Shown here piece after piece: positions 1,227 through 28,761 of a DNA stretch of 29,377 nt. The notes beneath the pieces are model-generated. The model was given only the letters and a program-made list of their open reading frames with translations. It was not told the DNA's origin and did no database searches. Both the position numbers and the translations under genes were made by a program. The stretch covers positions 1-29,377 of IMG/VR virus record IMGVR_UViG_3300048831_000035; one strand, given 5' to 3'. How positions within the stretch are numbered: the first letter of the stretch is position 1; every line of letters begins with the position of its first letter. This DNA is from a virus.

Positions 1227-1676
1227 TCATCGTTGACTTACATCATCGACGACACACGCGCGACGCGCCAAGATCAAGAAATGGAGGGACTTATGGGTCG
1301 GGGGGCCGCCGAGCCAGATCGCGGAGCTCGCCTCGCGAAGCCAGTCTACTTCCGACTCTGACAAGGCGGGCTCGAGAGTGATCGCCCAAGGCGAGGACAG
1401 GAAAGCCTCGATGCTATACCCCGCGGGCGACCATTCGTGATCGCGCCATAATTCGGCAATCGGGACGTCCAGCTTGCGGGCTAGCTTGGCCAAGGTCATA
1501 GCGTCGAAACGTTGCGTCTTGCCCGTTTCAATCTCCGTGACGGTGGGGCGGGCGAGATCGCTTTCTTCGGCCAACTCGTCTTGAGACCAACCGCGCTGGG
1601 AACGGAGGCGCCGGACGTTGCGACCAACCAGGGTTGGTTGCCGTTTCGTTTTGATTCTCCCACCCGGCGACTTCAT
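1227..1676 (-). CDS. XRE-family regulator, CI-like repressor candidate
   Basis: A 149-residue DNA-binding protein with an XRE helix-turn-helix at about residues 17-77 (LVGRNVRRLRSQRGWSQDEL, then LARPTV as recognition helix, then LAKLARKLDVPIAEL). The remaining 70 residues resemble no peptidase (no LexA/CI-type Ser-Lys dyad that I can see), so RecA-stimulated self-cleavage is not supported. It is divergent from a smaller XRE gene, with a roughly 110-bp control region between them, the classic cI/cro arrangement, and lies upstream of recT on the same strand. The role as lysogeny repressor is inferred from position and fold. Its helix-turn-helix closely resembles the divergent partner's (shared LVGR, LARPTV and IE.G.T), so both may read related operators. 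No clear ribosome-binding site precedes the ATG, so the start is uncertain. Confidence 0.75.
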   Translation of the reverse strand: MKSPGGRIKTKRQPTLVGRNVRRLRSQRGWSQDELAEESDLARPTVTEIETGKTQRFDAMTLAKLARKLDVPIAELWRDHEWSPAGYSIEAFLSSPWAITLEPALSESEVDWLREASSAIWLGGPPTHKSLHFLILARRACVVDDVSQR

Positions 1677-18309: not shown

Positions 18310-18802
18310 ACTCCAGATCGTGACGGCTACGGCCGAGCACGCCCGGGACCTCGGGCCTCGCATCCGCCCCGAGGAGCAGCTCGAGGTGTGGGCCTCGTGC
18401 CGGATGAATACCGCCGAGGCGCTCCTCTTCTCTCTCCGGGCCTCGGAGGTGGCGGGCACCGTGCTCGTGGACGGCGAGCCCGCCGCTATGTTTGGCGCCG
18501 CGCCTGTGGTGGGCTCCGAGAAAACCGCGATTGTCTGGCTCCTCTGCTCGGACCTAATCGAGCGCGTCCCAATGCAATTTTGCCGGGCCTGCCGGACCGA
18601 GCTCGGGATCCTCCACCGCCGCTGGCCGGTCCTTCTGAACGCCATCGACGCGCGTTACGCGCGCTCCCTCCGGTGGGCCGAGTGGCTCCGCGGGGTCCTC
18701 GGCCCGCCCGTGCCCTTCGGGGCCGCGCTGATGCCTTTCCGCTGGGTGCGGTTCGAGGCGTCGCCCGGCGAAAGCCATGAAAGAGAGGTGGCCTATGGGT
18801 GA
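18299..18802 (+). CDS. T7 gp13-like acyltransferase-fold protein
   Basis: The 167-residue protein occupies the gp13 slot, before gp14-, gp15- and gp16-like genes. In T7, gp13 is needed for internal virion protein assembly, and such proteins have a GNAT-like fold. It shows the expected pattern: VTATAEHARDLGPRIRPEE, an ASEVAGTVLVDGEPAAMFGA strand pair, TAIVWLLCSDLIERVPMQF, then helices and RYARSLRWAEWLRGVLG. I see no clear acetyl-CoA pyrophosphate loop, so activity is uncertain. Translation starts at GTG 18299 inside the end of the nozzle gene and ends overlapping the next gene. Confidence 0.65.
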   Translation: MASRLQIVTATAEHARDLGPRIRPEEQLEVWASCRMNTAEALLFSLRASEVAGTVLVDGEPAAMFGAAPVVGSEKTAIVWLLCSDLIERVPMQFCRACRTELGILHRRWPVLLNAIDARYARSLRWAEWLRGVLGPPVPFGAALMPFRWVRFEASPGESHEREVAYG

Positions 18803-19364
18803 GGCTATCGCCATCGGTGGAGCGGTCGCCGCGATCGCGGGCATTGGTATCCAGGCCTACGGCGCCTACAAGACAGCGGACGCCCAGGAGAAGGCCGCCG
18901 AGGACGCCGCGCGGATCTCGAGGAGTAACCAACAGGCCGCCGAAAAAGCCGCGGCCCAGAGCCTCGAGCGAGGATCATTCGAAGCCGGCCTCATTAGACA
19001 GAAGGGCACGAAGCTCGTGGCGGCACAGCGATCCCGGTACGCGGCCGGCGGGATCGACGTGACCGGCGGTAGCGCGCTCGAGGTCCAGGCGGAGACCGCC
19101 TACCTCTCGGACCTGGATGCCCGAACCACGGCGCTCAACGCCGCGCTCGAGGCGTGGGGCTACCGCAAGCAGGGGGCCACCTTCTCGGCCCAAGCCGCGG
19201 CGCAAATCCGCGCGGGGCAGAACGCCTCCTCCGCCACGCTCCTCGGCGGGGCCGGGAGCGCCATCGGCCAGGGCGCCCAGCTCGTGAATCAGTATCAGCA
19301 GGCCCAGTACCAGCGCTCCGCGTACCAGGCGCAGCTCGACGCGCAGACCAAGGGGCAAACGTGA
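18795..19364 (+). CDS. internal virion protein, T7 gp14-like
   Basis: gp14-like proteins leave the capsid on infection and form the outer-membrane channel of the ejectosome. The 189-residue product opens with a Gly/Ala-rich hydrophobic helix (IAIGGAVAAIAGIGIQAYGA) and continues as long amphipathic helices rich in Ala and Gln (DAQEKAAEDAARISRSNQQA onward). It contains the motif RYAAGGIDVTGGSALEVQAE at about 83-102 found in this family, and ends QYQQAQYQRSAYQAQLDAQ. ATG 18795 is supported by AGAGG six bases upstream; ATG 18777 would add six residues with no such site. The gene overlaps both neighbours. Confidence 0.78.
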   Translation: MGEAIAIGGAVAAIAGIGIQAYGAYKTADAQEKAAEDAARISRSNQQAAEKAAAQSLERGSFEAGLIRQKGTKLVAAQRSRYAAGGIDVTGGSALEVQAETAYLSDLDARTTALNAALEAWGYRKQGATFSAQAAAQIRAGQNASSATLLGGAGSAIGQGAQLVNQYQQAQYQRSAYQAQLDAQTKGQT

Positions 19365-21298
19365 GAGTCCCGACCTACGACGGCCTCCAGGTGGCCCCCG
19401 CCGCGCCCTCTCCGGTCTACGACCGATACACGCCCGACGGGCAGGAGCAGGCCGGCGAGGGCTTAGCGCGCTTCGGAGAGGGCCTCGTGCGGGCCGGGAC
19501 GGCCGCCGTGGCGAGCACGGCGTATCGAGACCCCGCAGAGCAGGCTTCGGCCCGGCTTCGGGACGAAGCCGATCGGACCATGGTCTCCCTGCAGGAATCC
19601 CAGCTCCTCGATCGGGTGCAGATCGAGACCGGGAAGGAAAAGGGGATCAAATCGAAGATCGGCGGGGACGCGCTCCCAGAGGTCGACAAGGTCAACAAGA
19701 GACTCTCCGACTTCCGCGACGAGCTCGGGGCGAAGCTCGTGGGACAGAAACAGAAGGAGCTCTGGACGATCCGCTCAAGCGCGATCCTTAGGTCCGCTCG
19801 GGAGATCGTCGTAGACCACGCCTACAAGCAGAAGGAGGCGGTCGACCAGGCATCCTATGTGACCGCGCAAAAGGGGTGGGCCAATATGGCCTATGAGAAC
19901 TACTCGTCGCCTACCATCGTCGCGGACGCCGAATCCACCTCCGGCAATAGAGCCTTCAGCGAGGGCCTCCGCCGAGGCCTCGGCGAGGCGGTCGCGCAGG
20001 AGATGGCCGCGCAGGCTCGGGCAGACATCGTCAAGCGGGTGGTCCAGGGCTACGTGGACGCGGGCCAGATCTTGGGCGCGCAGCTCTACGCGAAGAGCAA
20101 GGCCGCCGTCCTCGGCGACGAGGCGGGCAAGGTGCAGGAAGATATCCTCAAGGAGCTGGCCGTCCAGAACAAGCAGAAGGTCGCCGGCGCCCTGAACGTG
20201 CTGCTTCAGACATGGATGGACACGCACAACTCGAAGGACTTCTCGAAGGAAGCCCTCGTCGTGATCCATGACGAGACCATTCCCGGCACCGCCGACGCCC
20301 GCGAGAAGCTCGAAAACACAATGAGGCAGGACGTGGAAGCCTGGAAGCGCAAGGCCGCTGGGCTCCCGCCGCCCCCGGGCCAGCTTGCCGCATGGGTCAA
20401 CTTCAAGGGCCGGCTCGCGACCGACCCAAAGCAATTCACGACCATGGACGCGGATACCTTCCGGCGCGAGGTCCTCTCCGTTATCCCCGAGAACCGACAA
20501 GAGGAGGCCTCGGATCGGTGGTCCGCGGCTATCCACGATGGCGGCAAGGTGAAGCTCTATGAGGAGGTGGTCCTCAAGGCCTGCCAGGACGCCAACCGCT
20601 GCCCGAAAAAGAGCGCGAACGGGGTCAACGTAAACCAGCCCTCCACCTGGCCGGAGGCGCAACGGCAAACCTTCGAGAAGGCGCTCGAGGTCGCCCACGC
20701 GGCGGACACAGAGTATCGGGCGAGCCCTAAGAACCCCAACAAGCTCGCGGCTCCGGAGAGCGAGATACAGAAGCGGATGACCGCTGTCTTCACTGAGGGT
20801 GAGGTCCCGGACACAATGTTGGGGTGGAGCGTCAACCGCTCAAAGACCTATGCCGAGGCCTTGGCCGAGGGCAAGGCGGACGAGTGGAAGGCCCCGCCGA
20901 TGCCCGTCGAGAAAGGGCTCGAGATCCGGAAGATGATGGCGGGCAGGACGCCGCCGATCCCCGCGTGGCCTGAAAACGTGGAGGGTTTCTGGCGGATGAG
21001 CTTCACCGGCAAGGCTCCCAAGATCCGCTGGGAGCCAATGTCCGCCCCCGCCGGAAAATACATATCGAGGCCCGCGCCCGAGCCCTCGGCCGAAGAGAAG
21101 AGCACGCCTGCGCCGAGGGCGATCCGCACGTCGCCTTCAGGCTTGCCGATAGGCACGACCGCCGCGGAGATGGCCGGACAAGCCGCCGGCGAGCGAGCGC
21201 AGGGCTCCGCCGACCCGACTTCAGGGGTTCCGCGTGGCGCCACCATGGCGGACCTGGTGGCGCGCGAGAAGGCCGCCAAAGTGAAGGTGGTCCCATGA
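19361..21298 (+). CDS. internal virion protein, T7 gp15-like
   Basis: gp15-like proteins are ejected to span the periplasm together with gp16. The 645-residue product starts at GTG 19361 overlapping the previous stop (GTGA) and begins MRVPTYDGLQVAPAAPSPVY, resembling the openings of such proteins. Most of the chain is helical with regular charge (SARLRDEADRTMVSLQESQL, KAAVLGDEAGKVQEDILKEL). The last 100 residues are Pro/Ala-rich and probably loose, ending in a helix (ATMADLVAREKAAKVKV). No catalytic motif is seen. The identification rests on position, length and helical nature. Its stop overlaps the next start. Confidence 0.72.
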   Translation: MRVPTYDGLQVAPAAPSPVYDRYTPDGQEQAGEGLARFGEGLVRAGTAAVASTAYRDPAEQASARLRDEADRTMVSLQESQLLDRVQIETGKEKGIKSKIGGDALPEVDKVNKRLSDFRDELGAKLVGQKQKELWTIRSSAILRSAREIVVDHAYKQKEAVDQASYVTAQKGWANMAYENYSSPTIVADAESTSGNRAFSEGLRRGLGEAVAQEMAAQARADIVKRVVQGYVDAGQILGAQLYAKSKAAVLGDEAGKVQEDILKELAVQNKQKVAGALNVLLQTWMDTHNSKDFSKEALVVIHDETIPGTADAREKLENTMRQDVEAWKRKAAGLPPPPGQLAAWVNFKGRLATDPKQFTTMDADTFRREVLSVIPENRQEEASDRWSAAIHDGGKVKLYEEVVLKACQDANRCPKKSANGVNVNQPSTWPEAQRQTFEKALEVAHAADTEYRASPKNPNKLAAPESEIQKRMTAVFTEGEVPDTMLGWSVNRSKTYAEALAEGKADEWKAPPMPVEKGLEIRKMMAGRTPPIPAWPENVEGFWRMSFTGKAPKIRWEPMSAPAGKYISRPAPEPSAEEKSTPAPRAIRTSPSGLPIGTTAAEMAGQAAGERAQGSADPTSGVPRGATMADLVAREKAAKVKVVP

Positions 21299-24200
21299 GC
21301 ACGGACTGGGACGCCCTCGCCGACGAGGCGCTCGAGCTCGAATCCGGGGTGGGTAGCGTGGAGACACTCCCTCCGCTCGCGCCCGTGGCGAGCCCAGCAA
21401 AGCCCCCTGCCCCGGCCGCTCCCTCTCCCTGGGATGCCCTCGCGGACCAGGCCATCGCCGCGGACGAGGCCGCCCAGGAGCAGGAGGTCGGCCAGCTCCG
21501 TTGGCTCGAAAAGAACAACGTCCGCGACCCCGAGCAGGCCGGCGAGCTCCTCCGGTACTCCGCCGCCGCCAGGCTCCCGATAGACCAGGTGGCGCTCGAC
21601 CTGCCCGCGGTCAAGCGCAACATCGACGCGCAGCAGACGGACTGGGACCGCGTCTATCGGGAGAACCCGGTCGTGGCGCAATTCGCCCGCCAGCCCGGGA
21701 TCATGCCGCTTGTGAAGGACGACTGGGCCAACCTCCCATGGTTCGAATGGGGCATGAAAATGCCCTTCCGCGTCGCGCTGGACGCGACGAAGGCGCTCGA
21801 GACCACGGCCCGGCAGATCGGGGAATACGAGGGGTGGGGCTCGGAAGAGAACCGCCAGCGGATCCGCGAGCTCGAGGTCTCCCAGGCGAAGGACTACGGA
21901 GCGAATTCGTTCTTCGCAAAGGCCTGGATTGGGCTCCCGAAGATGGCGCCCTTCATTCTCGGGGACCTGGCCGCCCGTGTCGCCGGCGGGGCCGCGGGCG
22001 CCCTGGCGGGCCCCGGAGGCCTCGTGGCCGGCCAGTATTCCGGCTCCGCTCTCTTCAACTATTATCAGTCAATAGGCCCCCTCTACTGGCAGCTCATCCA
22101 GATCCCGGGCATGACTGAGGACAAGGCGCGCTGGCTCGCCCGCGGAGCAAGCACGGTCACCGCGGGACTGATGGCGGGCTTCTTCCAGAAGGCCTCCTCG
22201 GCTATCCCAGGGGTCAAGAGCGCCCTCGAGAAGGCCGGCGCCCTGACCGTCCAGAAGGCCCTCACGAGCGCCACCGTGCCCGCGGCATTGGGACAGGGAC
22301 TCAAACAGTGGGGCAAGCACGAGGCCGTGGGCGCGAGCCTCATGGCAGCGCAGAGCGCGATCAACCAGGCCGCGCTCGAGCTCGGGAAGGCGCCGGGTCC
22401 TTGGTCGGAGTCTTACGGGTTCGAGGCGGACCCCGGAGAGGTGTTCCGCGCCGGGCTCGAGGGCCTCAAGACCGGCGCCACCGATATGCTGCTCTTCTCT
22501 GCCTCGGGCCCCGGCAAGGCCTTCCTCAAGGAGCTCGGCCGGATTCACAACTCCGAGGTGAATTATTCGCGGGTGCTCGCCCTCTCCGACGCGGCGCAGG
22601 CCTCGACGGCCATGCAACGGTTCCCGCAAGGGGTCCGCGAGCTCATGGCCGAGCTCAAGCAGACCGAGGGCGCGGTCCAGGACATTCACTTCGACCGGGA
22701 GCGCTTCAACGCGCACTGCGAGAAGCTCGGCCTCGACCCAGGCGAGGTGTGGGCGGGGCTCCTCGGCGACGAGGGCAAGGCCTACCAGGAGGCCACGGAG
22801 ACCGGCGCCGAGACGCTCACCGTGCCCGTCGAGCTCGCCCTCGAGAAGATGGCGCGGAGCGAGGCTTTCCGGGACTTCTTCCGCACCGAGGGCAGGATCG
22901 AAGCGGACGGCATGACGGGCCGCGAGCTCGCCGAGCTCCACCAGAAGATGGACGAGGCCGCGAAGGTCCCCGTCGAGAAGCTCGAGGAGCCCTCACGCAA
23001 GGTCTACGACGACGTCTTCCAGAAGGCGCGCGAGGCCGGCCGCGGAAAGGCGGAGAGCGACGCGAACGCGAAGATCACCGTGGCATGGTTCGACTCCCTC
23101 GCCAAGCGGCTCACCGAGCCCACCGACCCCTGGGAGCTTTACTCGCGGTTTGTGCTCAGAATTGGCCGAGGTGATCACACCGAGGCGGGCGCCCTTGCGC
23201 AGAAAGAGGCGGCGCCAGGCAATCGAGCCATGGATCAGGCCTACGCCACGGCGGAGGCTTCCTATCTCAACTACCCGGAGGCGGAAAGGAAAGGACTGCA
23301 GTCCCGAGACTACTTTATCGACCCGACCACCGAGCTTCTGGGCGAGCAGGCCCTCCGAGACCTACCGGCCGACCCCAACCGCCCCATGGTCGGGATCCTT
23401 ACCTTCCCGTTCAAAAAACCCATCAATGACATAGGAGGCCACGAGTCCCTGGACGCCCTATTCGCCGACGTGGGGCGCGTGCTCCACTCTATCGATCCGG
23501 ATATCGCCAAGGTCGGAGGAGAATTCGTCGTCCCTCGCCTCAAGGATGAGGCGACGCTGAAGGAGATGATCTCGACGGCCAAGAAGGCACTCGCCGCCGA
23601 ATTGCCCCCGGAGGTGCTTGCTGAATTCGATCTTACCGGAGTCGCCGTCAATCGAGAGAAGGACCATAGGGCGACCGTCTACGCCGCGCAAGACGCTCTC
23701 AAAGAACATATTGAAAAGCGTAGAACGACTCCGGACGAGGCGGGCAAGCTCTGGCCTGGCCGCGAGCAACGCCCAGGGTTCGACGCCGCCGCCGTCGAGT
23801 TCAAAGGAAAGAAGGGACGCGCGGCAATCCCTGACGAGCTTCGAGCACTCCACGCTGGCCTGGACGAGAAGCAAGCGGCGCGAAAGATATTCCTCAAGCC
23901 GAACGGTTGTTTGACGATGGCAGGCTGGGAACGTCAACCGGAGATGCCTGTCTATGCCTCCTTCGACCTGCGCGCCTTCGGCGAGACTGACAAAAGCCTG
24001 GGCCATGTTGCAGCCGATGAAATCAACGAATCCTTCGGCGCGCTGGCCGTTGAAATAGGAGGAGACAAGTTCGTCATAGCCAACCCTTCCGGAGATGAGT
24101 ATCGGGTCGGGGGACAAAATGAGGCCGAATTGCGGGCCTTTCTCGATGTTTTAGGCGAGGAGGCCATCAAGATCGAGCGCGCCTATCGAACGAAGAGCGG

Positions 24201-27200
24201 TGGAATAGTCGCCCAAAATGGGGTATTCTTTACGTATGGTGTCGCAAAATCCTTCCACGATGCAGACAAAGTCGACCTCCCCCGAAACAAAGCCGAGCTC
24301 GGTAAAGCAGGACGAGGCAAGGAATGGTTTGCTTCCCATATCGGAGTGGTCCCCCGAGAACGATCCGATAGTTGGCTTAGAGATGCTGAGTTACGACGGG
24401 ATCGTGCTCTGGCGCAAAGGCGAACAGGTCTTACCGGGCGAGGTAGCGCAAAGGATGAAGGAAGCCTATCGCGCGACCCACTCCGAGAAGTAGCAGAGAC
24501 CGAAGGTTTCCCCCTCGCAGACCTCGGACCCGGGAAAGTAAAGCTCCCGCAAGGCGACCGAGGCTCGATCAGCTTCGCCCTGCCTGGTAGCACGACACCC
24601 CGTGAATTCCGGATCAGTCTTTTCGCGACCGCGAACCAGTCGACCCTCACCCACGAGCTCTCCCATTTCTTCGCCGAGGTCCTCGGCGACGTCGCCTCGA
24701 CTGAGACAGCCTCGCCCGACCTGATCGCAGACTACGACGCCCTACTCAAATGGATGGGCCACGCCTCCCACGAGGAGCGCACGGCCGCGACCCGCGAGCG
24801 GGTGCAGCTCGCCGCCCTCGTCGAGAAGACCCCCGAGCAGGCCGCGCGGCTCAAAGAGCTCGCTTCCCGTGAGGAGCGCTTCGCCTTCGCCTGGGAGCAG
24901 TACCTCGCCGAGGGCAAGGAGCCCGCGGAGCCGGGGCTCGCCGGGGTGTTCGCGCTCTTCTCCCGCTGGATGGTCAAGATCTACAAGGGGTTGCAGTCCA
25001 TCGCCCCGGCCATGCGCGGGGTGGAGGGCGTCAAGGAGTCCTACCGCAAGGAATACGGGCGCGAGATCGAGCTCTCGGACGACGTCCGGGCGATCTTCCA
25101 CCGCCTGCTCACCGCCGAGGACCGGGCCGAGGAGGCCCGCAAGGAGGCCGGACAAGACGCCTGGCAGTGGCTCCGGGAGCGCCTCTCCCCCGAAGAGCAA
25201 GCCGAGTACGATCGCGTGGTGACCGACCACCAGGACGAGGCCCGGCGCCAGCTCGTCGCTCGACTGGCCGCCGACAAGAGCGGCGCCGCCTCCATGTTCC
25301 TTGACGAAGAGCGGTCTCGACTCAGAGGTGAAGCCGAGGCCGAGCTCGCCGACAAGGCACCTTGGCGGGCTCTCCGTCTCCTCTCCGCCGGAGAGATGCG
25401 CCTCGCGGACGGCTCGGTGGTCTCTTCGGCGGCGCTCCCGGAGCCCTTTCGCCTGGCCGATGGCCGGGCCCTCAAGATCGACTGGGCCGCCGCGAAGAAG
25501 GTGCTCGGCCTGGCCGCGATCGAGCGCCTGCCCGAGGGGATCTTCACCTCCCGGGGCGGCGCGCACCCGGAGGAGGTGGCCTCCCTGCTTGGCTACGCCT
25601 CGGCTCACGCCATGGCCGAGGACCTCGCCAAGGCCAACAAGGCCGCGGTGGAGGCCGCGGCGCCGCTCTCCGTGGAGGACCCGGCTCGCCTGCCACGCAC
25701 CATCAAAGACCCTTACGGCGCCTACCTCGAGGCCGAGGTCTCCCGCCGGCTCACCGAGCTCTTCGGGCCGTCTCTCATCGACGATCCAGGGCGCCTGGGC
25801 GAGGAGGCCCTCTCGGCCGTGCACACGACGAAGGCCGCCCGGAAGCTCCTGCTCGAGCTCCGACACCTCACCCGGTTGATGGACCCCTCCCAGTCCCCCC
25901 GGATGCGCCAGGTGGACCTGGCCAAGCTCAAGGAGCACGCGGAGCGCCTGATCGACGAGCGGAAGATCCGGGACCTCCAGCCGAATTCCTTCCTCCGGTC
26001 GGAGCGCGCCCAGGCGCGGAAGGCGCTCGAGCTCGCCGCCGACGGGGACCTCCAGGGCGCCTACGACGCGAAGGAACTCCAACTCCTCAATCAGCTCCTC
26101 TTCGATTCGGCGAGAAAGAAGCTCGAGCGCGCGGAGAAACTGGCGGCGCGCCTCGGGAAGACCGGGGAGGAGGCCTGGCGCAAGGCCTTGGGCAAGGCCT
26201 CGCCCACCTACCGGGACGTCCACGACTCCTTGCTCGAGGCCCTCGGCCTCAAGGAGCCGGAGCGGGGCGAGCCGCAACCGCGTCAAGGAATTGACGCCCT
26301 CCTCGTGAAGATGCTCCAGGACGCTTCCGGAGCGTCCGTGGAGCGCGTGGCCGACCCCCGGACCGGCGCCGAGCTGGAGCGCCTCGTCGCGGACAACTGG
26401 GACTCCGAGCTCGTCCGGGACATCCTCTCCAGGCCCCGAGACCACAAGGAGCTCACCCCCGCCGAGCTCGAGGAGGTCCAGGCCGCGGTCAAGAACATCC
26501 GGAAGATGGCGAACGCGGACAATGAGGTCACCATCGCCGGCAAGCGTGCCGAGCGGACCGCCCTCCTCGAGGAGGCCGCGCGGGAGGCCGCCGCGAACCT
26601 GCCCGAGCAACCCGCCATCCCCCGGGACGAGCTCGCCGGCGGGGCCGGGAAGAAGGCCCTGCGCGACCTGCGCCTCAAGGTGCAATCGTGGGACGCGAAC
26701 CTCCTCACCATGGAGACCATGGTCGACATGCTCTCGGGAGGGAAAAAGGACACCGTCTTCCGTCGGCTCCTCGTGGACGGCTACCAGGAGGCCCGCAGGA
26801 AGAAGGAGGAGCTCTCCTCTCGATACCTCACGCGGATCACCGACCTCTGGGAGAAGCTCCCCAAGGCCATGCGGGCTCGGCGCTACGAGACGGTGGACCT
26901 GTCCGGAGAGCTCCCGATCCCGGACTCCATCGAGACCCTGGGCGAGGGGCCCTCGACCCGCACGCAGCTCTGGATGATCGCCCTCAACATGGGGAACCGC
27001 GGGAACAAGCAACGCTTGCTCGATGGCTACCAGTGGACCGAGGACCAGGTCATGCGGGTGCTCAAGCGGGAGCTCTCGGCCGAGGAGTGGAAGTGGGTGC
27101 AAGGCGTGTGGGACTCGCTCGAGGACCTCTACCCCGAGATCGCCCGCGTGCACGAGGAGGCCACGGGGCTCAAGCCTGGCAAGGTGCTGGCCACGCCCGT

Positions 27201-28761
27201 TGTCGGGACCGCGGCCGGGGACCTCAGAGGAGGCTACTTCCCCGCGCGCTACGACCCCCGGATCCCCTCGCTCGGCTTCCAACAGACGGAGAGCCAGATC
27301 GCGGGGCTCTTCGCCCCGGGCTACCGCCGGCCGGTGGTTCAGCATAGCCATTCCAAGAAGAGGGCCGTGAAATTCACGGACGTGGTCTCCTTGGACTGGT
27401 CCGTCCTCCCCTCGCACGTCGCGCAGGTCCTCCACGACATCTCCTTCCGGGAGTACGTGCGGAACACGGCGACGATCCTCCTAGACAAGCGATGGCAATT
27501 CCTCGCCCAGCGCTACCTCGGCGAGGAGCGCGCGAAGCAATTCGTTCCCTGGCTCCAGGCCGTGGCGAACGCGCAGGCGGACGCGGTCCCCGCGCACCTG
27601 GCGAAGGCCTCGAGCCTCTTGAGCTGGATGAAGAACCGCGCCGCGGCGCAGGCAATCGGGCACTCCATTGGCGTGGCCCTCGGCGACCTCTCGAACCCCT
27701 TGCTGGCCGCCGCCTCGGGCGAGGTCCGCCCGCGCTATCTCGCCCTCGCCACCGCGAAGATGGCCTCGGACTTCAGGGGCGCGCGGAAGATGGCGCTCGA
27801 GGCCTCCCCCGAGCTGCGCCACCGGGCGAGTGACTACGCGCAGAAGCTCCGGCTCCAGCTCGGGCTCATGGGAGGCTCTCCGGGCCTCGAGAACCCCACC
27901 CTCCGGGCCGTCCGGGAGAGCGCTTACTTTTTCATGGAGCAGACGGACAAGCTCACGGCCACGCCGATCTGGCTCGCCAAATATCACCAGGCCCTCGGCG
28001 AGGGCCGCGCGGACGCGGACGCCGTGAAAGACGCGGACGCCACGGTCCGCAAGCTCTTCCCCGCGCAGGCGGACCCGGAGAAGGCCGCGTGGCTGCGGGA
28101 TCACCGGGGCATGGCCTCCTTGCTCATGTTCTACGGGTTCATGAACAAGGTCTACAACCTTAACCGCTTGTACGTCCACGACGTATACAAGGAGTGGAAC
28201 GACGAGGCCGCGACCCCCGTCTCGAAGGCCACCGCGGTAGCGAAGGCCACGGGAAAGCTCCTCGCCACGGCCATGGTCGTGGGCGCCGCCTCGGAGTTTT
28301 TGAGCGGTCGAGGCAAAGAGGATGACGAGACCTGGGAGGAGTGGCTCGCCCGCAAGACCCTGGTCTCTCCTCTCTCCACCGTGCCCTTCGTGGGCCAGGC
28401 CGTCGAGGGAGTCTTCTTGCGGAAGCAGATCTCGATCAGAAACGCCCCTGCCCTCTCCCTCATGCAGAGCGCGGCGCAGTCCGTCCAGCGGCTTCTCAAG
28501 GCCGCGGAGGCGGGGGACGCCGACGCCGCGAAGACCGCCTGGGACACGGTCGAGCTCCTCGGCCTCGCCGCCGGCATCCCCACCCGCCAGCCAAGGAAGA
28601 CCCTCGAGTATCTCGGTGGCGTCGCCTCCGGCGCGGAGAGCCCCCGCGGGCCCGGGGACGTGGTCGGCGGGGTGATCTACGGCAAGCGCAAGGCGAACCC
28701 CGCAAACCTCGGGACCGTATCGCAGGACCTCATTGACCGCGTGACTGGAGCCTCTCCATGA
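21295..28761 (+). CDS. giant ejection protein (gp16 position) with GGDEF-like and zincin domains
   Basis: This 2488-residue protein fills the T7 gp16 slot, the inner-membrane part of the DNA-ejection machine, but is much longer and of the phage polyvalent-protein kind. I see no gp16-type transglycosylase. Residues 1-620 are helical, with a Gly/Ala-rich membrane-like stretch at about 220-270. Residues about 865-1020 form a GGDEF-like domain: D891 in ASFDLRAF, GH at 903-904, D908, SGDEY at 932-936, and a closing TYGVAK...NKAELGKAGR. Residues about 1085-1260 form a zincin: HELSH at 1120-1124, then ERFAFAWEQYL giving a likely third ligand. The rest is mainly long helices, with a conserved-looking end holding a hydrophobic helix at about 2320-2340 (KLLATAMVVGAASEFL). 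Codons around 620-1066 are lower in G+C than the rest. Confidence 0.82.
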   Translation: MSTDWDALADEALELESGVGSVETLPPLAPVASPAKPPAPAAPSPWDALADQAIAADEAAQEQEVGQLRWLEKNNVRDPEQAGELLRYSAAARLPIDQVALDLPAVKRNIDAQQTDWDRVYRENPVVAQFARQPGIMPLVKDDWANLPWFEWGMKMPFRVALDATKALETTARQIGEYEGWGSEENRQRIRELEVSQAKDYGANSFFAKAWIGLPKMAPFILGDLAARVAGGAAGALAGPGGLVAGQYSGSALFNYYQSIGPLYWQLIQIPGMTEDKARWLARGASTVTAGLMAGFFQKASSAIPGVKSALEKAGALTVQKALTSATVPAALGQGLKQWGKHEAVGASLMAAQSAINQAALELGKAPGPWSESYGFEADPGEVFRAGLEGLKTGATDMLLFSASGPGKAFLKELGRIHNSEVNYSRVLALSDAAQASTAMQRFPQGVRELMAELKQTEGAVQDIHFDRERFNAHCEKLGLDPGEVWAGLLGDEGKAYQEATETGAETLTVPVELALEKMARSEAFRDFFRTEGRIEADGMTGRELAELHQKMDEAAKVPVEKLEEPSRKVYDDVFQKAREAGRGKAESDANAKITVAWFDSLAKRLTEPTDPWELYSRFVLRIGRGDHTEAGALAQKEAAPGNRAMDQAYATAEASYLNYPEAERKGLQSRDYFIDPTTELLGEQALRDLPADPNRPMVGILTFPFKKPINDIGGHESLDALFADVGRVLHSIDPDIAKVGGEFVVPRLKDEATLKEMISTAKKALAAELPPEVLAEFDLTGVAVNREKDHRATVYAAQDALKEHIEKRRTTPDEAGKLWPGREQRPGFDAAAVEFKGKKGRAAIPDELRALHAGLDEKQAARKIFLKPNGCLTMAGWERQPEMPVYASFDLRAFGETDKSLGHVAADEINESFGALAVEIGGDKFVIANPSGDEYRVGGQNEAELRAFLDVLGEEAIKIERAYRTKSGGIVAQNGVFFTYGVAKSFHDADKVDLPRNKAELGKAGRGKEWFASHIGVVPRERSDSWLRDAELRRDRALAQRRTGLTGRGSAKDEGSLSRDPLREVAETEGFPLADLGPGKVKLPQGDRGSISFALPGSTTPREFRISLFATANQSTLTHELSHFFAEVLGDVASTETASPDLIADYDALLKWMGHASHEERTAATRERVQLAALVEKTPEQAARLKELASREERFAFAWEQYLAEGKEPAEPGLAGVFALFSRWMVKIYKGLQSIAPAMRGVEGVKESYRKEYGREIELSDDVRAIFHRLLTAEDRAEEARKEAGQDAWQWLRERLSPEEQAEYDRVVTDHQDEARRQLVARLAADKSGAASMFLDEERSRLRGEAEAELADKAPWRALRLLSAGEMRLADGSVVSSAALPEPFRLADGRALKIDWAAAKKVLGLAAIERLPEGIFTSRGGAHPEEVASLLGYASAHAMAEDLAKANKAAVEAAAPLSVEDPARLPRTIKDPYGAYLEAEVSRRLTELFGPSLIDDPGRLGEEALSAVHTTKAARKLLLELRHLTRLMDPSQSPRMRQVDLAKLKEHAERLIDERKIRDLQPNSFLRSERAQARKALELAADGDLQGAYDAKELQLLNQLLFDSARKKLERAEKLAARLGKTGEEAWRKALGKASPTYRDVHDSLLEALGLKEPERGEPQPRQGIDALLVKMLQDASGASVERVADPRTGAELERLVADNWDSELVRDILSRPRDHKELTPAELEEVQAAVKNIRKMANADNEVTIAGKRAERTALLEEAAREAAANLPEQPAIPRDELAGGAGKKALRDLRLKVQSWDANLLTMETMVDMLSGGKKDTVFRRLLVDGYQEARRKKEELSSRYLTRITDLWEKLPKAMRARRYETVDLSGELPIPDSIETLGEGPSTRTQLWMIALNMGNRGNKQRLLDGYQWTEDQVMRVLKRELSAEEWKWVQGVWDSLEDLYPEIARVHEEATGLKPGKVLATPVVGTAAGDLRGGYFPARYDPRIPSLGFQQTESQIAGLFAPGYRRPVVQHSHSKKRAVKFTDVVSLDWSVLPSHVAQVLHDISFREYVRNTATILLDKRWQFLAQRYLGEERAKQFVPWLQAVANAQADAVPAHLAKASSLLSWMKNRAAAQAIGHSIGVALGDLSNPLLAAASGEVRPRYLALATAKMASDFRGARKMALEASPELRHRASDYAQKLRLQLGLMGGSPGLENPTLRAVRESAYFFMEQTDKLTATPIWLAKYHQALGEGRADADAVKDADATVRKLFPAQADPEKAAWLRDHRGMASLLMFYGFMNKVYNLNRLYVHDVYKEWNDEAATPVSKATAVAKATGKLLATAMVVGAASEFLSGRGKEDDETWEEWLARKTLVSPLSTVPFVGQAVEGVFLRKQISIRNAPALSLMQSAAQSVQRLLKAAEAGDADAAKTAWDTVELLGLAAGIPTRQPRKTLEYLGGVASGAESPRGPGDVVGGVIYGKRKANPANLGTVSQDLIDRVTGASP
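24218..24493 (+). CDS. possible overlapping or fossil reading frame inside the giant gene
   Basis: In the +1 frame relative to the giant gene, a 91-codon frame runs to TAG 24491-24493. Its last 44 codons (24359-24490) have G or C at 32 of 44 third positions, against 16 of 45 in the giant gene's own frame over the same DNA; the giant gene shows 17 of 20 at 24841-24900. The +1 product there looks protein-like (VGLEMLSYDGIVLWRKGEQV), while the main-frame product is Arg/Ser-rich. The first half of this frame looks less real, and no good ribosome-binding site precedes ATG 24218. A frame switch at the CCCCC run (24351-24355) is an alternative to an independent gene. Confidence 0.3.
   Translation: MGYSLRMVSQNPSTMQTKSTSPETKPSSVKQDEARNGLLPISEWSPENDPIVGLEMLSYDGIVLWRKGEQVLPGEVAQRMKEAYRATHSEK

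Follow-up and report, generated by a model that had tools for sequence, protein, structure and literature searches.

An ejection-type gene in T7-like order

The window, i.e., the whole stretch of viral DNA analysed here (29,377 nucleotides; IMG/VR record IMGVR_UViG_3300048831_000035), contains an intact giant open reading frame (ORF) that, both here and in relatives, lies between a gp12-type tail gene and a tail fibre gene and after gp14- and gp15-like genes, which is the T7-type order. The following features are found in this region:

18777..19364, + strand: gp14-like internal virion protein, borderline (PF24072 T7_gp14, 26.4 bits for a cut-off of 27)
19154..21298, + strand: structural lysozyme/transglycosylase-like protein at the gp15 position (phrog_10475 endolysin, E 2e-12)
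21295..28761, + strand: giant polyvalent ejection-type protein at the gp16 position, 2488 aa
21517..21759, + strand: LPD22 (large polyvalent protein associated domain 22), residues 75-155 (Pfam PF18834, 37.5 bits, cut-off 28.6)
23287..24399, + strand: whole A+B cassette, residues 665-1035, a low-GC island
24652..24666, + strand: zincin-type HExxH motif (HELSH, residues 1120-1124) of a predicted metallopeptidase directly 3' of the cassette
24553..28692, + strand: conserved C-terminal core of the ejection protein, residues 1087-2466 (phrog_9880)

In relatives, the gp14-like gene is kept upstream of the giant ORF and a structural lysozyme is likewise annotated at the gp15-like position. The C-terminal core matches phrog_9880 (E 2e-209), and 545 relatives of it were counted in the candidate stretches from IMG/VR. 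Homologues of the giant protein are found in BPP-1 (bbp10, 'structural protein cassette'), Pseudomonas phage AF_016, and Cobetia phage Carin1 (gp32). Moreover, the two His and the Glu of the HExxH motif, together with one later Glu, are invariant in an alignment of this core from five phages. The protein has the traits by which polyvalent proteins are recognized, being large and multidomain, combining LPD22 with a zincin-type peptidase, and lying among late virion genes. It is a polyvalent ejection-type protein that is probably injected into the host; its T7-like gene order and polyvalent architecture also bear out the gp16 position proposed in a sequence-only reading of this DNA.

A tandem pair of GGDEF palms

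The same reading had placed a GGDEF-like domain at 23890-24330, within the giant protein. The domain is real, and every residue named for it (D891, D899, GH 903-904, D908, SGDEY 932-936, TYGVAK, AD, and NKAELGKAGR) lies where it was reported. That description was, however, incomplete, since it overlooked an upstream pseudo-catalytic copy at about residues 670-800 that makes the module a tandem pair:

23302..23694, + strand: GGDEF-like palm A, pseudo-catalytic copy, about residues 670-800 (A-only profile, 13 modules, AF2 palm topology)
23857..24330, + strand: GGDEF palm B, catalytic-type copy, about residues 855-1012 (B-only profile, AF2 hairpin with GDEY)
24088..24102, + strand: SGDEY signature of palm B, residues 932-936

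Taken alone, the window protein is a marginal case, scoring 12.2 bits (E 0.15) against Pfam GGDEF (PF00990), below the cut-off of 23.8, with a best PDB match at E 0.05. Single-sequence scans with either the window module or the C-terminal 788 aa alone recovered no relative in IMG/VR or GTDB contigs, and relatives of the module were recovered only with multi-sequence alignments. These revealed the A+B pair in 12 relatives (nine IMG/VR contigs and three Myxococcota genomes), so that the conservation counts below refer to 13 modules, window included, which share 23-45% identity. L124, a protein kinase-like protein with a degenerate B-like stretch, was judged to be a different protein and left out.

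All 10 module members scanned match Pfam GGDEF (best E 1.2e-8), with scores above the cut-off in the orthologous modules L023 (35.4 bits), L092 (27.5), L087 (25.3), and L097 (26.6). A profile of 10 members gives 48 PDB matches at E up to 1, all of them GGDEF-family domains, and the separate halves retrieve essentially GGDEF structures only, from E 2e-9 for the A-only profile and from E 2.5e-9 for the B-only profile, which lists about 47 GGDEF chains ahead of the first unrelated one. Profiles A and B also match each other (probability 98.4, E 4e-15). Because of these family profiles, the GGDEF resemblance is far better than chance despite the marginal score of the lone window sequence; a fortuitous likeness is ruled out, and both palms are of GGDEF ancestry. 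The proposal that a true GGDEF-family palm lies within this protein was thus correct. The strict GG[DE]EF signature is absent from both copies, B carrying SGDEY, HGDEY, or SGDEF and A a GG-x-F type, and the models of defence systems used for comparison gave no match.

AF2 predictions for two module members (pLDDT 83.9 and 85.9, pTM 0.78 and 0.81) show two palm folds, and Foldseek aligns these models with GGDEF domains at TM values, on target length, mostly of 0.5-0.67, while matches spanning both halves superpose poorly (rmsd 10-17 Å). According to these models, both halves adopt a palm fold, in which D891 and the GDEY hairpin occupy canonical strand positions, in agreement with the fold anticipated from the sequence.

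The two palms differ in what they conserve. In palm B, whose landmarks in the window are D891, G903, D908, SGDEY 932-936, and a C-terminal AD/K..GR, the equivalents of the metal ligand D327, G369, an Asp at E370, and E371 (PleD numbering) are each present in 13/13 members, so that the metal Asp and the acidic pair to which the sequence-only reading had drawn attention are kept across diverse relatives. N335 and K442 are each kept in 11/13, the equivalent of Asp344 is D or N across the family (D908 in the window), and H340 is replaced, by K in 10/13. Within the signature, GDE is invariant, preceded by S in nine members and by H in four. Neither residue precludes activity in known cyclases, since ECA3270 works with SGDEF and VCA0965 tolerates HGDEF (PMC3974145). 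Palm A (D676-P-T-T, T703 in place of the metal Asp, K708, N711, GH 715-716, and VGGEF 740-744 in the window) keeps K332, N335, G339, and H340 in 13/13 members, and neither the metal Asp nor E370 in any (0/13). None of 100000 random column draws was as conserved as the catalytic set of B or as the nucleotide set of A. Conservation is therefore complementary, B keeping the catalytic residues and A only those that contact the substrate.

The window copy is the most divergent of the 13 at the active site. It has D899 in place of the base-contacting N335 and G896 in place of K332, and its C-terminal Lys is not cleanly aligned. Since window B lacks two nucleotide-contact residues, altered substrate specificity or inactivity is possible and, judged from these substitutions, the window's own B may have changed in specificity or become inactive.

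Cargo, sensing, or synthesis

The cassette differs in composition from its surroundings. Its GC content is 58.2% (rest of the ORF, 68.6%) and its GC3 0.65 (whole ORF, 0.85), and about 2% of the segments of this size in the ORF are as GC-poor. This break is cassette-like in the window phage. Among 70 relatives, the length ahead of HExxH ranges from 672 to 3035 aa, and sibling slots are filled with ddrB-ParB, LPD23, RadC, or PBECR5. The A+B pair itself recurs in polyvalent proteins and, in L092, adjoins DarA_C, i.e., it sits in a different protein. We consider evenly poised the reading in which A+B is a mobile cargo cassette within the ejection protein, its catalytic and pseudo-catalytic GGDEF palms pairing within one molecule to yield a nucleotide product in the host. 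A purely structural virion part, a relict palm fold devoid of nucleotide function, would fit the virion-type protein that houses the module as well as the divergent active site of the window copy, but it is highly improbable, given that the slot varies among relatives and can be dispensed with, that the active-site residues are the most conserved ones, and that the module also occurs beside DarA_C.

As mobile cargo with a paired active site, the cassette could act as follows. Firstly, the giant protein would be packaged and enter the host with the phage DNA, where the zincin-type peptidase just 3' of the cassette might release it by cutting. Secondly, A and B would form an asymmetric pair within one chain, B binding metal and transferring phosphoryl groups through its Asp and GDEY hairpin, and A, devoid of a catalytic metal site, holding the partner nucleotide via Lys, Asn, and Gly-His. 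As A lacks the metal ligands, it cannot take part in the symmetric chemistry that ordinary diguanylate cyclases perform. From GTP or ATP, the pair would make a di- or oligonucleotide, which would disturb c-di-nucleotide signalling or nucleotide-based defence in the host. In its most specific form, which we regard as rather doubtful, this would be an asymmetric palm synthase injected as a single chain, the GGDEF equivalent of the paired palms of Cas10, and its product, made as infection begins, would be a non-standard nucleotide, cyclic or linear, e.g., a decoy for nucleotide-sensing defence.

The same residues can also be read as a nucleotide sensor or sponge, somewhat unlikely in our judgement, which would bind GTP, c-di-GMP, or a defence nucleotide without synthesis and either regulate neighbours such as the zincin peptidase or sequester the signal. 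The retention of nucleotide contacts in an A palm devoid of metal ligands and the missing N335 and K332 equivalents of window B are consistent with this role, and binding or ATPase functions do occur among degenerate GGDEF domains such as that of YybT (PMC3974145). However, the metal Asp, the Gly-Asp-Glu, and the C-terminal Lys of B, usually lost in pure sensors, are kept in most members in spite of their divergence, and no inhibitory I-site RxxD precedes the signature in the B alignment. Many active cyclases also lack this site.

An ordinary diguanylate cyclase, in which the B domains of two ejected copies pair symmetrically to make c-di-GMP and A has no role beyond that of a regulatory or structural spacer, appears improbable. 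The ejection proteins of T7 are multicopy, and B resembles the compact SGDEF/AGDEF proteins that Yuavirus and Vojvodinavirus encode as stand-alone domains; invariant nucleotide-site residues in A are, however, unexpected in a spacer, and B lacks H340.

If the module is active, an enzyme for nucleotide signalling would reach the host ready-made along with the phage DNA, ahead of phage gene expression, and the known phage means of degrading or sequestering defence nucleotides would be complemented by a synthesis arm.

Comparison with known palm-domain systems

Among palm-related enzymes, GTP cyclohydrolase III (MJ0145) aligns in Foldseek over about 330 module columns, but with an rmsd of 16-17 Å and TM of 0.2-0.3; it catalyzes a different reaction and is not found by the module sequence profiles. 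Palm polymerases related to the module also include the Palm1-Palm2 of Cas10 (type III CRISPR) and mCpol/OptS of Panoptes. The active palm of Cas10 follows a degenerate one, and Foldseek lists Cas10 chains over long alignments with the module, which, in contrast, has no GGDD motif, lies outside a CRISPR context, and superposes poorly as a rigid body. The sequence profiles point to GGDEF chains, with no Cas10 chain among the matches listed, so that a CRISPR-polymerase palm was rejected as the family of the module. With its active-site residues divided between two fused palms, the module suggests a route from symmetric homodimeric cyclases to asymmetric single-chain ones, comparable to class III cyclases and Cas10.

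The palm fold is shared with the GGDEF cyclases PleD, DosC, SadC, and DgcR, as are the DxLT-type N-terminal motif (A), the metal Asp with the G-D/E-E-F/Y hairpin (B), the base Asn, the Gly-His, and the C-terminal AD...K. The module differs from them in having two palms per chain with the active-site residues divided between them, an S/H-G-D-E-Y signature, a B palm free of the I-site RxxD, and, in the window protein, a score under the Pfam cut-off. The compact GGDEF proteins of Yuavirus and Vojvodinavirus (CN1, Churro) have, like B, a short domain with an SGDEF/AGDEF signature and match the module at E 1e-4 to 1e-3 by sequence and E 1e-7 by Foldseek; they are, however, single-domain proteins whose genes lie close to those for terminase, in non-structural surroundings, whereas the module lies inside a virion-type protein.

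A further parallel is offered by polyvalent proteins, for which GGDEF is listed as a catalytic domain, e.g., in an Acetonema longum prophage protein, in the part of Iyer et al. (2017, PMC5512222) available here; the sequence-only reading had pointed to such modules correctly. There too, GGDEF is found in a giant, probably injected phage protein beside a zincin-like peptidase and LPDs, and the same part of that paper describes no tandem catalytic/pseudo-catalytic pair. Thus, measured against that account, GGDEF domains in polyvalent proteins were already known, and the tandem A+B pair is a new variant of them.

Genomic setting and cargo slot of the giant protein

The window, taken from an IMG/VR-type virus record of 29.4 kb, carries a T7-like gene order, and parts of this order also surround the homologous giant proteins in four relatives (stretches L023, L088, L097 and L141 of other genomes or contigs).

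Genes of the T7-like order (window positions)
7867: terminase
9792: portal/connector (PF12236, E 5e-152)
between portal/connector and major head protein: protease
12579: major head protein
14652, 15271: tail tubular-type proteins
18777: gp14-like protein, borderline (PF24072 at 26.4 bits, below the cut-off of 27)
19154: lysozyme-like protein in the gp15 position
21295-28761: giant protein, uninterrupted ORF of 2488 residues
28758: tail fibre N-terminus, after the giant protein

An HTH_3/Cro-C1-type repressor-like gene (1227-1676, minus strand) points to a temperate phage.

The giant protein bears an LPD22 domain at residues 75-155 (Pfam) and a conserved core formed by its C-terminal 1400 residues (phrog_9880), which is common to Bordetella phage BPP-1 bbp10, Pseudomonas phage AF and Cobetia phage Carin1. 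This core opens, directly after the GGDEF module (residues 665-1035), with a zincin-type HExxH motif (HELSH, residues 1120-1124; window 24652-24666) that is kept in nearly all core relatives and is recognised by no Pfam model in the window. The nearest core relative seen is L141 (36% identity), and Myxococcota genomes hold prophage-type giant proteins with the module (L097, L121/L140 and L122/L141), hinting at a myxobacterial host.

The middle of the protein is a variable cargo slot. Among 70 relatives whose ORF start is intact, HExxH lies 672 to 3035 residues from that start, and sampled slots contain ddrB-ParB, LPD23, RadC or PBECR5 nuclease domains. Among the 80 best core relatives, only two, L023 and L043, have the GGDEF module. 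In the window it forms a low-GC island (58.2% versus 68.6% in the rest of the ORF; GC3 0.65 versus 0.85 in the whole ORF). Relatives do not generally show such a dip, suggesting that this phage acquired the module recently.

A tandem of GGDEF-like palms

Searching slots with the window sequence yielded those two relatives (L023 and L043), a three-sequence alignment added seven in IMG/VR, and larger alignments added three Myxococcota genomes. Each of the 13 members contains two GGDEF-like copies, upstream A and downstream B, which are homologous to each other (probability 98.4, E 4e-15). A ten-member profile matched 48 PDB chains at E ≤1, all of them GGDEF-family domains, and profiles of A alone and B alone each reached E of about 2e-9. 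Some members exceed the Pfam GGDEF cut-off (L023 35.4, L092 27.5, L097 26.6 and L087 25.3 bits); the window protein falls below it (12.2 bits), so that a single sequence was insufficient for certainty. The sequence-only reading had placed one GGDEF-like domain here, with every named residue at its correct number; family, profiles and models bear out the domain, although it is one half of a tandem.

AlphaFold2 predicts two palm units in the modules of the window (pLDDT 83.9, pTM 0.78) and L087 (pLDDT 85.9, pTM 0.81). The model of the window module places the metal Asp D891 (module residue 227) within strand 222-228 and GDEY (269-272) at the turn of hairpin 263-268/271-276, a predicted placement like that in GGDEF enzymes. 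The top Foldseek matches are known GGDEF domains (TM mostly 0.5-0.67 on target length, isolated domains); GTP cyclohydrolase III and Cas10 are listed too, with long alignments and poor superposition. Among viral library entries, Bordetella phage CN1 gives a match at E 1e-7 with its stand-alone GGDEF protein.

The module turns up repeatedly in ejection-type proteins and once in a DarA_C protein; both kinds are thought to be delivered. The DarA_C protein (L092:3-3152) is a different polyvalent protein, in which the same tandem is joined by the DarA_C domain and by a kinase-like region. Additionally, a bacterial protein kinase-like ORF from a Myxococcota genome (L124) includes a degenerate B-like stretch with the signature lost (E 9e-16).

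Active sites and proposed function

Conservation was compared with nine canonical cyclase domains, using PleD numbering and the residue roles generally assigned in the family. In B, the metal Asp, Gly369, Asp at 370 and Glu371 are invariant (13/13), Asn335 and Lys442 are each kept in 11 of 13, and the first signature residue is Ser in nine and His in four. Ser occurs there in the active cyclase ECA3270, and His is tolerated in VCA0965 (PMC3974145). In contrast, A keeps the DxLT Asp, Lys332, Asn335, Gly339 and His340 in all 13, but has T/S/A/G in place of the metal Asp and in no member an acidic residue at 370. Thus, each copy lost a different part of the site; none of 100000 random column sets was as conserved as the catalytic set of B or the nucleotide set of A.

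The module is best read as a nucleotide enzyme that is delivered: B would catalyse, A would hold a nucleotide, and the neighbouring peptidase may set the module free. A role for peptidases of this kind in processing polyvalent proteins is proposed by Iyer et al. (PMC5512222). Since A lacks metal ligands, a single chain is unlikely to carry out the symmetric c-di-GMP reaction, the alternatives being a linear product, a re-bound cyclic product or B-B pairing between chains. The main rival to a delivered enzyme, a sensor or sponge, gains weight for the window's own copy, whose B deviates from the B copies of related modules at two positions, Asn335 (D899) and Lys332 (G896).

Comparison with known systems

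A literature text search found no paper combining GGDEF with a virion protein and ejection, and the literature searched appears to hold no description of a conserved split GGDEF tandem within the cargo slot of an ejection protein. Stand-alone phage GGDEF proteins are known. Compact AGDEF/SGDEF stand-alone proteins lie next to an antirestriction gene in two stretches (L095:6037-6495 and L096:4004-4474) and are widespread among phages of the genera Yuavirus (Pseudomonas) and Vojvodinavirus (Bordetella). For LK3, a related phage, lysogens form more biofilm, although causation is not proven (PMC8471281). GGDEF domains in polyvalent proteins are already reported by Iyer et al. 2017 (PMC5512222), and the giant protein shares the architecture of their polyvalent proteins.
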